Positions 10,854 to 23,600 of a stretch of 23,801 nucleotides of DNA are shown here, in pieces. The DNA is from Cochliopodium minus (taxonomy: Eukaryota > Discosea > Himatismenida > Cochliopodiidae), in NCBI GenBank assembly GCA_024220525.1, contig JAMYWO010000085.1:66929-90729 (forward strand), written 5' to 3'. The translations under genes and the position numbers were made by a program. The notes under the pieces are model-generated. The model was given only the letters and a program-made list of their open reading frames with translations. It was not told the origin of the DNA and did not search any database. How positions within the stretch are numbered: position 1 is the stretch's first letter; each line of letters begins with the position of its first letter.

Positions 10854-13800
10854 TTAAAAGAAATAAGCAAAAAGAATAGTGAATAAAAACAATGCGGAAT
10901 AGACCAAAGAAGATGCAGAAGAGAAAGAGTTAGGGGTTTGAGAGAAACCACCATAAGTAACAACATCTTGGTTGTATTTTTGATCGAAAGTTTGTAAGTT
11001 AGCTCCGTTTGCATCATAAGATCCAGTAGTAGGAGCAACCAAAATACGTCTGGTTTGAGTAGCATTTCTTGCGATAAGAGTGTTAGATTTACCAGTGTAA
11101 GTTCCAACAGATGCAGTTTGTGCATTATACCAAGTATTTGAATCAAAGTAAGCAAGAACAGAACCATCAGTAACACCATAAATGATTCCATCAAATTCTC
11201 TCAAGTTCAAGAAATTTCCATTAGGTCTCAAACTAGAAGGATTAGGAACAAGATTGGTTGTTCCAGCAAAAGAGTAGATATTATTTGGACGATCACAAGC
11301 ACCTCTGCACTTTGCAAGAACAGGTTCCCAATGTTGTCCGTTTTCATACCATCTAGCAATACCCCCAGTGTTAATTTTTCCTCCAGCACTAGTGAAGGTA
11401 CCTCCAACAAAGAGTTGTCCGTTTCTGTAAGCCAAAGCAAGACCATTTCCACCAGTAAGTCCAATTCCAAGATTTCTCCAAGTTGCTTTGCTATCTGCTA
11501 CATCAATTACAGCAATGTGAGAAGTTGGAACTCTTCCTCTTTGAAGGCTTCCAGTATAAGAACCTCCAGTCAAACCACAAAACAAAAAGTCACCAGTAGC
11601 ATACAATTTGCTTCCTACGAACAACAAATCTCTGACAGTCAAATCACAACCACCATCTACTTGATTCCATCCTGCTCCAGATTCTCTAAATTTGATGCTT
11701 GCAATGTTCAAGAGAGATGAACCAGAGTTGTTTCTGTTGAATTGTCCAGCAGCATATAAAACATCTCCTCTTTCTTCAAAATCCCAAACGTTTCCTCCAA
11801 TTCTGTTGTTATAGATAAGATCTTGTCCATAAGCAGGAGCTCCATTGTAGTAAAAGAGACCTCCACCAACAGCAGAAACAGTGTCAGCAATAGAGTTGTA
11901 CCAAGCAACTCCTCCAATAGTTTGAGAACCAATAAAATCAAATTTTCCTCCAATGATGAGTGCATCTTTAGATTTAGTTTGGTGCAATACATTTACAGTA
12001 CCTTCAGTTCCAAAGATAGCTTGAGTACCAGCAGAAACAAATCTTTGTCTTCCCAAAACAGCGCTCCATCTATTTTTTTGATTGAGATTCTTTTCTCCTC
12101 CCCATGAGAAAATGCTTCCTGATACAAGACCATAGGTGGATAATAAAGCATTTTGAGGGTTGTGTACAAAGAATGCTACATCTTGAGCTGCATTCCAAGT
12201 AAATCCAAATGGAGACACAGTCAAAGCAGAAGTTGGGGTTGAATCAGAATCATAAGTGGTGGAAAGAAACCCTCCAAAAGCTTGAGACCATTGGTTGTTA
12301 ACAAAAGAAGCAGCTCCCTTCATAACTTCGGTATATCTTTGTCCAAATTTAGTGTTTACACTTGGGACAATGTAACGGTAAGAATCAAAGTTACCCCAAA
12401 CAAAAACGGTTCCTTGAGTTTTGGAGATTTGATTGATATTAGCACCCATATATTCAGGTGCATTTGTAAGAGTGGAAAGTCCAAATCTTTCAGAGAGGGT
12501 GTTGAGGGTAGATCCAACAATTTGAAATACACGGGTTTGCATTTGTCCTGCACTGTTATCAACAGAAACATTTCTTTCAGCAACTCTCCATCCTCCAGCA
12601 ACATAGATAGAGTTTGCAGATTCAACATAAATAGCAGTCAAACCAGTTGCATCCAAACCAGGAAAGATTTGAGCTCCGTTAACAGAGTTTACAACAGGTC
12701 CAAGAGGTTGGAAGTTTGCAAGAGGCAAAGGTTGAGGGTTAGATACTGCTCTCCAATTAGTACCAGCATCATTAGATACAGCAATGTGTAAGTATTGTCT
12801 AGTTGCATCAGCATCATTGGTGTTATCGAATTTTCCAACAACATAAATGTTACCGTTGCTATCAATATCGAAATCTGCGATAGCACCCAACAAGTTACGT
12901 GCTCCACTAGAAGCGGTGATTTGAGTCCATGAAGCAGAATTTGGTTGAAAAGACCATAAGTTATTGGTATCTTGCAAGATAAAAGTTTGAACATTGTTAA
13001 AATTGAATACTCTCAATTTGTTTTTTCCGGCAGTCAAACCAGGTTGATTAGATCTTGGGCACAAAGAACTGCAAGCTCCATTGATGAATTGATTGTATCC
13101 ATTACCAACAGTGGAGATGGAAAAAAAGTTTCCATTGGTCCATGTTAATTTAGCAAAACCAGCAAGATTTCCTCTTACAAGTCCAACTTGATTGAAGTTA
13201 CCCAAAATATAAACATCATTTCCACTTGCAACTGCTGCAAAAACGGTACCAGCAGAGGAAGAAACTTCATATCTAGGAGTAGTTGCTGCAGAGTTTTGAT
13301 TATAATTGAAAACTCCAACTCCTTCAGGTGCAGACCAGACTTTTCCGTCCCAAAATGCAAGACCTGCTGCATTTCCGTTTCCTCCATTAATAGATGTGAA
13401 ACTACCGTAAGCCAAGAGACCTCCTCCAACTGATACGATCCCATTTAATTGAGAGTTTGGAATTCCGTGAGGAAGAACTACATTCCATCCATTTGATGTG
13501 ATCTGCAATCAAAAATAATTAAATTTTTAATTTTAAAAATAAAGTTGAGAATCTTATAAGAATGAATATTTATGGTCTTTGATTTAATATTTTTTTTTTT
13601 TTTTGAAAGGTATCATTTTAATTGTCCAAAATAATAACATTCCTCTGTTAAAAAATTCGTTTTTTTTTTAAATTGAAATATATATATTTTTTAGGAAATC
13701 CATTATTGTAAATCTGTAGATTTTTTTAGAAAATGATACGTTAAATGCAGCAAATCCGTTGATTTCTTGTTGGTCACCTCTAGATGCACTGCTACCTGCC

Positions 13801-17899: not shown

Positions 17900-19797
17900 A
17901 TGAAGAAAGTAATCACAAAAATGAAGTTCTTTGAGAACAGATATTTTTCATCAACCACAAAAAAATTCAAATTAATAGAAACAATGGAGATATCTGAGGT
18001 TCACAAAATACTTTATTTCGAATATTTTTTTCAAAAAGATTTTCTTCTAATATCCACAAATAAATCAGATAAAGAAAGAATTGGATGATGGAAGGATAAC
18101 AAGTGTAGAATTAACAAAAAAATGCTTTGATAAGATAAAAGAGAATAAAAATTTGAATGCGTTCATTTCAATCTTTGAAAATGAAGCATTGGACAAAGCA
18201 CACAAATCAGATATCAAAAGATATAAAAAACAAGAATTGGGAAAATTGGAAGGAATACCAATAGCATTAAAAGATGTTTTCCTCACAGAGAAATTAAAAA
18301 CGACAGCAGGATCAAAAATGTTGGAATCATTCATTCCTCCTTATTCTTCTAATGTGAGTGATAAATTAGATAAGGAAGGATATGTTTTGTTGGGAAAAAC
18401 AAATCTTGATGAATTTTGTATGGGATCAACAAATAAACATTCATCATATGGAGTTTCAATCTCTCCATGGAGCAATTTTTGGGCAGGTAAAAAAAAAATT
18501 TTTGTTTTCTACCTTATCTTCATTTGAAATAAAGGTGCTCCTAAAAAGATTACTCCAGGAGGATCATCAGGTGGATCTGCTGTTGCAGTTTCTTCAGGCA
18601 TGTGTTTTGGTGCATTTGGAACAGATACTGGAGGAAGTATTAGACAACCTGCTTCTTATTGTGGTATTGTTGGATTAAAACCAAGTTATGGAAGAATATC
18701 AAGATGGGGATTAATTTCATTTGCTTCATCACTTGATACACCTTCAATCATGGGTAAAAAAAGAAATTTGCGCCAAATTTTTTAATTTTTCGAAAATTAT
18801 TTCAAAAAAAACCATGCAGGTAAGACAGTAGAAGATGTATCTCTCATACTTGAATGTACTGCAGGATTAGATAAAAGAGATGCAACATCATTTGATTATA
18901 AAGTGGATGATTATTATTCAAAGATTAAGAATATTGAAAACGCAGAAGGATTGACGATTGGTATTCCTGAAGAATATAATGTATCTGAACTTTCAAAAGA
19001 ACATAGAGATTTATGGAGACAATCTGTCGAGAAAATGGAGAGAGCAGGAGCTAAAATCAAACAAATTTCACTCCCACATACCAAATATGCTCTTCCTACT
19101 TACTATATCCTTTCGAGTGCAGAAGCATCAAGTATTTTCATTTATTCAATTTTTATCCTTCAATTTTGAATCTTTTTATCAAAGGTAATCTCAGCAGATA
19201 TGATGGGATCAGATATGGTGGTGTTGAAATTGATGATAAATCCTTTGAAAATATCCAAATTGATGAATTTTTGAAATTGAACAGAGATAGAGGCTTTGGA
19301 ATGGAAGTGAAAAGAAGATTATTGATTGGAACATTTGTTCTATCGAGAAGTTCTTTCGATAGCTTTTATCTACAAGCTTTGAAAGTTAGGAGACTGATCA
19401 AAAATGATTATGATTATGTTTTCAATAAGGAATCTGGAGATGCAGTGGATGTAACCTCAATCATTTTCTTCTTTTTTTTTTTTTTAAATAAATTTTATTC
19501 CAATCCCAGGTCATTATAACACCAACTGCACCAAGTTCATCTTTTCCTATCGATCAAAAAATGGATCCTATTGATGAATATTTAAATGATGTTATGACCA
19601 TTCCCTCGAATTTGGCTGGTTTACCAGCAATAAGTGTTCCTTTTGATCTTGATCAACATAAACTCCCTTTTGGTATTCAAATAATAGGATCATACATGGG
19701 TGAAACAAAATTATTGCAATCTGCCAAAGTATTACAAATGAATTCCAATTTTTACCAAAAGAGGTTTTTAGATAAGGTTATCTCTACCAAAATCTAA
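17900..19797 (+). CDS. QRSL1: Glutamyl-tRNA(Gln) amidotransferase subunit A, mitochondrial (GatA/QRSL1)
   Basis: GatA is the amidase-signature subunit of the GatCAB transamidase. It frees ammonia from glutamine so that Glu-tRNA(Gln) becomes Gln-tRNA(Gln) in mitochondria. Six exons, 17900..17998, 18069..18486, 18535..18753, 18820..19131, 19185..19450 and 19510..19797, give 533 aa. Residues 1-28 are basic and Ser/Thr-rich, like a mitochondrial presequence. The mature part starts [19 protein letters not shown]. The catalytic set is visible: Lys101 in PIALKDVF, the cis-Ser in [10 protein letters not shown] (about 183) and the nucleophile Ser207 in [49 protein letters not shown] and PTAPSSSFP also match the family. 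ATG 17900 is chosen because it supplies the presequence; ATG 17984 would remove it. GatB and GatC are not here. Confidence 0.96.
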
Positions 19798-19960
19798 TCA
19801 AAAAAAATAAAAAACAGTTATTTATAAATTTTTTTGTCAGTTAATTATTTGTATTTTTGCGCTTCTTTTACCGCTCAATATCATTAAAATATAATAAAAA
19901 AAATCTATATAATTAATTCAAAAAAATAAAAAAAAAAAGTAAAAGAAAAACCAAGGAAAA
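19798..19960 (+). promoter_or_regulatory. Promoter region of the H2A gene
   Basis: 163 bases lie between the GatA stop and the H2A start on the same strand. They should hold the GatA 3' end and the H2A promoter. A TATATAATT sequence occurs near 19906-19914, about 50 bases before the ATG, but the background is so A/T-rich that this is weak. Confidence 0.4.
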
Positions 19961-20362
19961 ATGTCTCAAAAATCAACCAAATCCCAAAAAGATAAAAAAG
20001 ACCCAATTTCCAGATCATACAGAGCAGGATTACAATTCCCTGTTGGTAGAATCCATCGTTTCTTGAGAGAAGGAAAATATGCTGATCGTATTGGAGCAGG
20101 TGCACCTGTATATTTAACTGCAGTCCTCGAATACCTTGCAGCAGAAATTCTTGAATTGGCTGGAAATGCAGCAAGAGACAACAAAAAAACCAGAATCATT
20201 CCAAGACATATCCAACTTGCAGTAAGAAATGATGAAGAATTAAACAAACTTTTGCAACATGTTACAATTGCAAATGGAGGTGTCATCCCTTCCATCCACA
20301 CTGTTTTGGTTCCAAAGAAATCCAAATCAAGAAAAGGAGGTTCTTCTTCTCAAGAATACTAA
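19961..20362 (+). CDS. H2AX: Histone H2A with H2A.X-type SQEY tail
   Basis: Core nucleosome histone, intronless, 133 aa. The fold is full length: [53 protein letters not shown] sits in the usual order (described by parts: L1 and alpha1 with FPVGRIHR, the acidic-patch helix [13 protein letters not shown]), followed by [20 protein letters not shown] and the docking segment [18 protein letters not shown]. The tail ends in SQEY, the S-Q-[ED]-hydrophobic motif whose Ser (here residue 130) is phosphorylated by PI3K-like kinases at DNA breaks in H2A.X proteins. The gene is followed by a histone mRNA stem-loop, so it looks replication-dependent. Whether it is the main H2A or a special variant cannot be told from one window. 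Confidence 0.97.
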
Positions 20363-20420
20363 GAGACTTTCATATTCTTTGTACTATTAAAACCAAAAAA
20401 AATACAAAAAAAAACTTAAA

Positions 20421-20441
20421 GGCGATTTTTATCGCCACCCA
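20421..20441 (+). ncRNA. Histone mRNA 3' stem-loop (SLBP-binding element)
   Basis: GGCGAT-TTTT-ATCGCC forms a perfect 6-bp stem with a 4-base loop (20421-20436), followed directly by ACCCA. This is the canonical geometry and 3' flank of the replication-dependent histone element bound by SLBP. It starts 58 bases after the H2A stop. A purine-rich stretch (AAAAAGAAAAAAAA, about 20453-20466) lies where a histone downstream element would pair with U7 snRNA. It stands out as the only G/C-rich hairpin in the surrounding A/T sequence. Confidence 0.92.
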
Positions 20442-20611
20442 AATCAACAAATAAAAAGAAAAAAAAATGTCTATTTTCAAATATAAATATATATTCAATA
20501 ATTGTTAGTTATAGTCCAAATATATTGATAATATTTGACGTTTTCTAAATACAAAGTAAAATTTGTTCATGGTAAATTGTTTTGAATTAGCACTCTAAAA
20601 AAAAAAAAAAA
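20442..20611. other. Intergenic region H2A / RAB3GAP1
   Basis: 170 A/T-rich bases run from the histone stem-loop to the RAB3GAP1 start codon. No gene or other structured element was seen. It presumably holds the RAB3GAP1 promoter. Confidence 0.5.
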
Positions 20612-23600
20612 ATGTTGAAGGACAAAAAATTTACAAAAGAAAATGTAGAGAGTGAAACTTTTGAAATAATGGATTATACTTGTGCTTCATCATGGGAAAA
20701 GTAATATTTATGAAATCCTTTTCTATTTGAATGATTTATCTCACTGAATATATTTAAAAAAGATTCATACAAAATATAGAATCAACATTCAGAACATGGA
20801 CAAAAAATTCAAATGAAAGAGAAACATCAGTACAATTGAATTATTCAGACAATTATTATTTCTTAAAATTGTATGAGAAAAACAATCTCTTTGAATTGGT
20901 GGAATTAAATCAAACATTTGGAGGGAAAGAATACTATTCCAATTCGATGAATGAAATGATGAAGATGAATTCAGATTATCCATCCAAAACACATCATCTC
21001 TCAAGATGGTTTGGATTTGAGAGATTTGTAATAATGAGTTCATTTCATTCAGAAGGGACAAATTTGGGTGAAAGCCAAATGTTATTGAGCTCCCTCACTA
21101 TCGCCTCTGCAAATTGCAACATGGAATTGCCAATGTTCGTGGTTGTTGGGAGACAAGAATTGGGGGTGTACATAGGATCAATGCTCTCAAATAATCAAAT
21201 TATAACCAATTTTTCCTCAGATGTCCTAGAAAATTTCAATAGGAACAAGGGTATATAAAAAAAAAAATTAAATATATTATTTATTTCAAAATATGAAAGA
21301 GTGTTGACTATTTACATTTGACATATCATATCACCTAAATAATAAATTTTATGATATTGAATCCTTTTTTTATATTTCATTTTACAGAACCAACAATAAA
21401 GAAATTGCTGTCTTTGTTTCACTCAAAGATGGTAACAAAATTTTTTGGAAATCTTTACAAAATTAAATTTAAATAAATTAAAAAAATTAAATTAAAAAGA
21501 TTAAAATTAAATTAAAAAGAAATTTTAACCAACTAAAGTAAAAATTAAAATTATAGTAAAATAAATTCAAATTAAAACTAATCTTGAAATTAAATGATTA
21601 AAATATTTTTTTTTTTCAAAAGGAAATCCCAATGCTTTTTGAAAAGGGGTTCGAAGTTGAAACGAGCATTTCATGCAGGTACACATACATGTTAGACTTT
21701 GAAGACAATGGATGGGAAAAGGGGCTCTACAAAGAAAATGAGTACAAAAGGTCACAAAAGCACCTCGAGTTTGAATGGGGACCTCATTTGTCTCAGGATC
21801 CCATCGAAGCCATTCATTTGGCCACTTCTTCTGTTTTGACTTTTTCTAATGAGAAATCTCTTTTGAAGAATCCTTCTTATCATTCTAAATTTGATAAAAT
21901 GGACTCCAACCAAAGTGAAAATTGGAAGTTGAAGGTAAATCAAATAATAATGGAAATTAATAAAATTAAAAAGTAAAATAAATAAAAATAAAAGGTAAAA
22001 TAACGTAAAATAAAAATAAAATAAAAAAATATGATTAAACAAAAAATAAGATAAAATTTTTATTCAAAAAAATAATTATTTAATTTTGATACATTGTTAT
22101 TTATTATAAATAGAAACTAAATTTATTATTTGTTTCGATAATTTATTAGTTTGTTCAATTTCTAGATTTCATTTTTTAAAATTATTAATTTATTTTTATT
22201 AAAATTTTTTTAATTAAAATTTTTTTTTCACAGGCAATATTCACAGAAAAGCCATTTTGCTCATTATCTTCCAACATGAACCGTTTGATACACTCAATGA
22301 ACGACGCAGAAGGCTACAGATCCATTGTAGAAATAAGCAACTCGCTTCAAAAGTACAAAAACATTTCTTCTCATTACAACCCCTCCAACCACTTGCTCAG
22401 CTCTGTCGGAAATTTCACCAAGAACGTCAAAAACTTCCTCTCCTTCAAAAATCTCCCTTCTCTTCAACAAATCAACGATATTCTTCTTGATCTTTTTCGT
22501 GTCGATCATCCTTCTCAATCTCCTTTTCCTAAAGTAAATTTATTCTTTTTATTATTTTATTTTTCTATTTTTTATTTTTCTTTGTTTTATTTTTTATTTT
22601 TTATTTTTTGTTTTTTATTTTTCATTTTCTTGCTTTTATTTTTTTTTTATTTTTTATTTTTAATTTATTTTTTTAGATAGAAAGAGCGTATGACATCAAA
22701 TCAGCTCCTCCTTTGTCTCTTCTTTCTTCTCTTTCACTCCATCTCTTGAATCACACTTCTCTTGAGTCCATTGGTGACATTTTCTTTTTTTTTTTTTTAT
22801 AAATTTAATTTTTTTTTTTAATCATTTTTTAAACATAAAAAAAATAAGTATTGATATGGACAGACTTTGTAAAAAAATTGAGAGGATTATGGGAAAACAG
22901 CAAGTTTATTCCCAGAATTGGTAAATTCATTTTTTTTAAAAAAATTCAAAAAATTTGTTTTTTCAAAATAAAAATAAACAATTTTTCAATTACATTTTTT
23001 TTTTTCAATAGTTTTTTTTTCAGTTATTTTATTTCTATTGTATTTTTATTTGAATATTTTTGTTATTTAGATTATGAAGAAGTATCACATGTTTCAAGTC
23101 TTTTGTATCAAAAACTTCAAATGATAAACTACTGCGTGTCAAAAAAGAGGGAGTGGAACGAATGGAGAAAGGAAGAGCAGAACTCCAAAAAAAGCAAAAA
23201 CGATCCTAAAAACCTCACCAAACTTTTTGACACTTTTGACACCTCAGACAACAAAAATAACAAAAAAAATGATGGTAAAATTTTTATTTTTTTTTTTTAT
23301 TTTTTTTTTTAATTGTTTATTTTATTTTATTTTTATTTATTTATTTATTATTTATTATTTTATTTTTCATTTTTTTATTTTTTTTATTAGAGGAAAACTC
23401 GAAGAGTCATGAAAATTCTAGCGAAGAATGGGAGGAGTGGGAAGAATGGGAAGGCGAAAAAGATACTGAAAACACCACCGAACATCAAAGCAAGAAAAAC
23501 TCCTCCAACAAAAATGACAACGAAAAAAACAATAAAAACAAAAATGAAAATGAAAATGATGTCAATTCTAAAGACGATGTTAAAGGTAACAGAACTCATC

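Follow-up and report, generated by a model that had tools for sequence, protein, structure and literature searches.

Introduction

Yeast histone mRNAs are polyadenylated and, unlike the system analysed here, have neither the stem-loop nor SLBP. Davila Lopez and Samuelsson are said to have described stem-loop histone genes in protozoa and algae in 2008, and we know of no report from these organisms of a downstream element at fixed spacing together with Lsm10 and Lsm11.

According to the accessible part of PMC12774660, animal U7 pairs with a purine-rich element that lies downstream of the stem-loop. Stem-loops and SLBP are reported in protozoa in the available text of PMC12819152. A review groups some protozoa with animals as using the U7 snRNP and SLBP machinery, its available sections naming no protist parts (PMC6723414). 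Among the full-text literature matches listed, a scope with most subscription papers outside it, none names U7 RNA, Lsm10 or Lsm11 in a protist.

Here we describe a histone H2A gene and its relatives in an assembly of 44.65 Mb and 598 contigs. The gene lies in a window of 23,801 nt (G000:C85:66929-90729), which is the whole stretch of DNA that was first annotated; the features of the gene are listed in Table 1. An initial annotation of the window had proposed an H2A.X-type gene with a canonical stem-loop 3' end and had considered it a useful lineage marker. The last point loses its force because stem-loops and SLBP are already in print for protozoa, as far as the accessible text of that report goes (PMC12819152).

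Results

H2A.X as the apparent sole H2A

The annotated SQEY end is borne out by the intact ORF, the translation of which ends in SSSQEY. The Pfam models Histone_H2A_C and Histone both score above their cut-offs, and 212 distinct PDB sequences match at E<=0.001 (best E 7e-64), the best 60 of the 212 being all H2A by name. With its H2A fold and a C-terminal SQ(E/D)-hydrophobic motif, the protein is of the H2A.X type. When the genome was searched with this protein (E<=1), four H2A loci were obtained, all of them with the SQEY end, and no H2A lacking SQEY was seen among them. The 133-aa protein is identical at three loci (the window, C157 and C589); the fourth gene, C214, is half hidden by N and shows 99% identity over 85 matched residues. 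Two of these genes have stem-loops (the window gene and C214) and the other two have AATAAA and no stem-loop. Because all four loci end in SQEY, the damage-signalling form is apparently the sole H2A: on sequence evidence, H2A.X appears to be the only H2A found within the assembly and to be made by both gene classes. Likewise, the major H2A of yeast carries the SQ motif and there is no separate H2A.X. The proposal that one gene may serve both as bulk H2A and as H2A.X is incomplete or wrong: the double role does not fall to one gene, and a single protein is encoded by two gene classes.

H2A.Z was not found in the same protein search (E<=1), which is unusual unless there is an assembly gap. The neighbours of the window gene are, by eye, a GatA-like amidotransferase upstream (18051-19794) and a Rab3GAP-like protein downstream (20758-21973), each in several pieces. 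Further away, an open frame of 562 aa on the minus strand (10854-12542) has no Pfam match, and GC content is 0.39 at positions 11001-13000 versus 0.14-0.33 in the remaining 1-kb steps of the window.

Table 1. Features of the H2A gene in the window (positions counted from the first letter of the window)
Feature	Position	Strand	Basis or remark
CAGTTATTT promoter element, common to stem-loop H2A (C85), H2B and H3 genes	19815-19823	+	promoter comparison
TTTGCGC promoter element, core TTGCG	19856-19862	+	about 100 nt before ATG
Histone H2A, H2A.X type, 133 aa, C-terminus SQEY	19961-20362	+	intact ORF
Histone 3' stem-loop, 6 bp + 4-nt loop, GGCGAT-TTTT-ATCGCC	20421-20436	+	sequence, Rfam, fold, six-gene alignment
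ACCCA flank, expected mature 3' end	20437-20441	+	cleavage site predicted by animal analogy
Candidate histone downstream element, purine-rich, AAAAAGAAAAAAAAA	20453-20467	+	sequence
Core AAAAGAAA of downstream element	20454-20461	+	17 nt after window stem-loop

The 3' stem-loop

A 6-bp stem-loop with an ACC-type flank stands behind the window H2A gene, 58 nt from the stop codon, and all three annotated parts (stem-loop, ACCCA, purine-rich stretch) are present in the sequence. Five other core histone genes of this genome also have a stem-loop. As in animal replication-dependent histone genes, it is found 45-62 nt past the stop and has an ACC-type flank in most copies (ACCCA in 3/6; ACTCA, ACACC and ATTCA in one each). 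The word "canonical" holds for H2A, with its loop of 4 nt; in H2B, H3 and H4 the loop has 5 nt, which is unlike animal genes.

The Rfam model Histone3 (RF00032) matches positions 20416-20461 with 29.2 bits (E 8.6e-7 for 181 bases searched), below the curated threshold of 34, and at that threshold nothing is listed over the whole window. This score would fit ordinary 3' UTR hairpins or chance structures in AT-rich DNA. Such an origin is nevertheless extremely improbable: the pattern is exclusive to histone 3' ends genome-wide, pairs are changed on both sides of the stem, and SLBP is present. More specifically, the window stem-loop folds with -9.4 kcal/mol (z -4.1; 0/200 shuffles equally good), and the pattern GGCGATTTTTN{0,1}ATCGCC has four matches in 44.65 Mb, all behind histone genes (two H2A and two H4), with none in the reversed control. 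The fold score and the genome-wide restriction to histone 3' ends argue that the window stem-loop is not due to chance. It is important to note that the exact pattern is blind to the stem variants of H2B (GGTGAT/ATCACC) and H3 (GGCGTT/AACGCC), which were identified by inspecting the 3' ends of the histone genes and are changed on both sides relative to H2A and H4. In the six-gene stem alignment two pairs are changed on both sides and 36/36 cells are paired, while 14/500 shuffles score as high; since the alignment has six members drawn from four gene families, the paired changes lend modest support to the stem-loop.

Broader searches were less specific. The Rfam Histone3 search of the genome (75 of 7644 candidates scored) gave one site, behind H3 C24, and missed the window site; at the same loose limit all 14 control genomes have matches. 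A 21-base pattern with at most one mismatch found 48 sites versus 42 in the reversed control and is uninformative beyond the window site.

Two gene sets for each core histone

The histone-family search of the genome gave 15 matches. Twelve are core histone genes, two belong to a cenH3-like gene (C182) and one to a further protein with a histone fold (C538, TAF6-like by eye); C182 and C538 were set aside from the core count. The cenH3-like H3 has a long N-terminal tail, is split in two and shows no stem-loop in a scan limited to 4-nt loops.

Six core genes have the stem-loop (H2A C85 and C214, H2B C268, H3 C24, H4 C112 and C343) and six do not (H2A C157 and C589, H2B C157, H3 C65 twice, H4 C187). 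A hairpin scan of the 250 nt after each stop (6 bp, at least 3 GC pairs) was positive for exactly the first six. All six stem-loop-less genes have AATAAA 48-64 nt past the stop; the shuffle odds of AATAAA at 40-70 nt are 0.08 to 0.23 per gene. H3 and H4 proteins are identical between the two sets, and H2B has one difference in 117 compared residues, the N-terminal tail differing. Fourfold sites differ between the sets by 19% to 56% with the proteins kept, and since the proteins are kept despite many silent differences, selection seems to act on both sets.

Unlike the animal genes, those described here are few and dispersed, and the same proteins are also encoded by a set without stem-loops. 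Coding frames are uninterrupted in C85, C268, C24 and C112 (the 5' half of C214 is hidden). The stem-loop H4 gene C343 (L018:1325-1695) differs from animal replication-dependent genes in having a 59-nt GT-AG intron within its coding sequence. In C157 (G000:C157:49710-50787) an H2A and an H2B gene, both without stem-loops, form a divergent pair with one common promoter region.

The promoters of the two sets also differ; C214, being half hidden by N, was left out of these counts. CAGTTATTT is present at -138 to -146 in 3/5 readable stem-loop promoters, GCGC in 4/5, and TTGCG, on either strand of the last 200 nt, in 5/5, versus 0/6 of the other promoters in each case. We take the TTGCG core to be E2F-like. 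As the words were chosen by searching for differences, and the two C157 promoters overlap, which leaves fewer than six independent promoters in the stem-loop-less set, the separation of the two gene sets by promoter words is suggestive. The motif YTTGRYAA, presumably X-box-like, occurs in four of the six stem-loop-less promoters and in one of the five stem-loop promoters.

Two stem-loop genes likewise contain AATAAA in the first 110 nt past the stop: in the window gene (offset 87) it overlaps the downstream element, and in H4 C112 it lies 24 nt after the stop. Stem-loop genes could thus make both stem-loop and polyadenylated mRNAs, with the stem-loop-less genes being minor or silent, and human H2AFX offers a precedent in the accessible part of its description (PMC7807067). 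We regard this arrangement as quite improbable, because the stem-loop-less set keeps its proteins despite silent changes and differs in its promoter words, and is therefore not decaying. Two separate gene sets remain our preferred reading. The similarity to H2AFX is that H2A.X would come from stem-loop and poly(A) messages; the difference, as far as that source goes, is that one human gene has both ends whereas here separate genes exist for all four core histones (PMC7807067).

A spaced downstream element

In all six stem-loop genes the purine-rich downstream element is found at a fixed distance, AAAAGAAA starting 16-17 nt past the stem-loop, with a conserved G inside the A-rich context. Such spacing resembles that of animal replication-dependent genes. 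Shuffle odds of AAAAGAAA are 0.0005 to 0.0045 per gene, and none of 3000 shuffled sets has any common 8-mer at one offset (+-1). As the two H2A and the two H4 genes are paralogues, the spaced element represents about four independent cases. The sequence AAAAGAAA also follows two of the six stem-loop-less genes (H2A C157 and C589), where no hairpin precedes it.

SLBP

The initial annotation reasoned that the stem-loop implies SLBP, and the genome agrees: in a profile search, three loci encode the SLBP RNA-binding domain (99, 83.5 and 65 bits, each over the cut-off), versus 0/14 control genomes with a match. One of the loci has a stop inside the match, which we read as an intron. The C126 protein matches solved histone hairpin-binding proteins, presumably those of fly and human, with a best E of 8e-16, and is aligned through the TPxK region with TPxK kept. 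The C135 domain has kept TPxK and SKRSWDGQV. The C131 domain is divergent, with SKRAFEGSI and no TPxK, and possibly has another target or role. An SLBP in the same genome as stem-loop histone genes is shared with animals and, outside animals, with the protozoan and algal stem-loop systems.

Candidates for U7 snRNP proteins

The LSM search of the genome gave 19 matches, in which Sm/Lsm names other than those of the two candidates below were assigned by eye. A good candidate for Lsm11 is C89, a protein of 204 aa after joining two exons. Its Sm fold stands behind an N-terminal extension of ~120 residues, with YSELFDPHLALLDDDLLPPVP near the start of the extension. With phmmer, four LSm11 sequences match at E 1.2e-4 to 3.2e-4, and over the Sm fold a solved SmD2 (1.5e-6) and SmE chains (from 3.7e-5) equal or outscore LSm11. 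The N-terminal piece with the motif FDPxLAL is aligned to residues 38-60 of the LSm11 chain of 6v4x with a score of 2.1 bits; this numbering is about 11 too high relative to the 360-residue LSm11 chain, and either way the piece falls within residues 23-130. According to the available text of PMC5636114, LSm11 residues 23-130 form the N-terminal domain through which FLASH is bound. The local score of this piece, 43, is reached in 0/20,000 shuffles and is the top of 1094 reading frames (next 39), a shuffle test that overstates the match because the stretch was picked by the aligner. The N-terminal 47 residues alone have no match at E<=10.

C144, 117 aa from four exons, is a fair candidate for Lsm10. 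Taken whole, it is most similar to Lsm4, and Lsm4, Lsm6, Lsm2, SmD1 and others outscore LSm10 (E 1.7e-7 versus 0.031); Pfam gives both LSM and the Ataxin-2 SM domain. When just the C-terminal part is used as query, no Sm-family chain other than LSm10 comes up at E<=10; LSm10 itself has E 1 and is outranked by three chains outside the Sm family. By eye, the LSM match list contains no recognisable SmD3, so C144 may also be a divergent SmD3.

Search for U7 RNA

No U7 RNA, a check on which had been proposed with the annotation, was found in the genome with the Rfam U7 model and four sequence patterns, a minority of the pattern sites having been read. The Rfam search (65 of 19418 candidates scored) gave 23 weak matches, with E from 0.03, and 12/14 control genomes have matches as well. 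Three of the 23 were read and rejected: C175 keeps the 5' half and has no hairpin, C172 sits by eye at the start of a protein reading frame, and the C10 match covers only about 27 bases. The pattern TTTCTTTT..AATTTNTCTAG has no genome matches and four in the reversed control. For TTTCTTTT..TTTNTCTAG there are 35 matches versus 110 in the reversed control, and three of the loci were fetched, folded and rejected. CTTTTT..AATTTNTC, with 1772 matches versus 1154 in the control, is too loose. TTTCTTTT..AATTTSTC has 100 matches versus 43 in the reversed control; two of them start 62 bases apart at G000:C27:58482-58562 (-), and another is at C48:180639-180656 (+).

Discussion

The suggestion of a U7-like snRNP finds partial backing: the element at fixed spacing and the Lsm11 and Lsm10 candidates speak for it, and the failure to find U7 RNA, in which the genome differs from the animal system, speaks against it. 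It could be that SLBP binds the stem-loop and the general CPSF machinery cleaves without U7 RNA, the A-rich element being the context of the cleavage site. The outcome of the Rfam U7 and pattern searches agrees with this, as does a protozoan survey cited in the available text of PMC12819152, which is said to have found stem-loop and SLBP and not U7 parts. Processing by SLBP without U7 is still rather unlikely in our view, given AAAAGAAA at a fixed distance in 6/6 genes with its G kept in A-rich context, and an Lsm11 candidate with an N-terminal motif. The spaced element and the two Lsm candidates are also what these genes share with animal ones and, as they are not known to us from protozoan and algal stem-loop genes, what sets them apart from the latter.

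We therefore favour a replication-dependent stem-loop set with SLBP and U7-type processing, accompanied by a parallel set for the same proteins that is probably polyadenylated, and consider this fairly probable. The window H2A would belong to the replication-dependent core histone set of an AT-rich organism, apparently a protist. SLBP would be expected on the stem-loop, and a U7-type snRNP with an Lsm10/Lsm11 ring would pair with the downstream CAAAA(A)GAAA element; the U7-like RNA, if present, would be a small transcript that contains an Sm site and has UUUCUUUU close to the 5' end. The pre-mRNA would be cut after ACCCA and not polyadenylated, giving an S-phase mRNA. The second set, with the same proteins, no stem-loop or spaced element and AATAAA near the stop, would probably give polyadenylated mRNA outside S phase too. 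H2A.X, the sole H2A found, would be supplied through both routes.

A wider proposal is that a U7-type snRNP (Lsm10, Lsm11 and a U7-like RNA reading CAAAAAGAAA) works in a non-animal protist and predates animals, with complete parallel stem-loop and poly(A) sets of core histones, H2A.X as the only H2A, and up to three SLBPs recognising the 4- and 5-nt loops. We put this forward tentatively, with somewhat less than even confidence.

Since the two gene sets encode the same proteins and differ just in promoter and 3' end, they provide a natural control for stem-loop function. In the literature, as far as the sources were accessible, the age of the U7 snRNP is unsettled: the particle is mostly described in animals, and a deeper origin is given for stem-loops and SLBP. 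A U7-type snRNP in a non-animal protist would, if true, mean that U7 processing is older than animals, and a protist with a spaced element and Lsm11 and Lsm10 candidates makes the question of U7 age testable.
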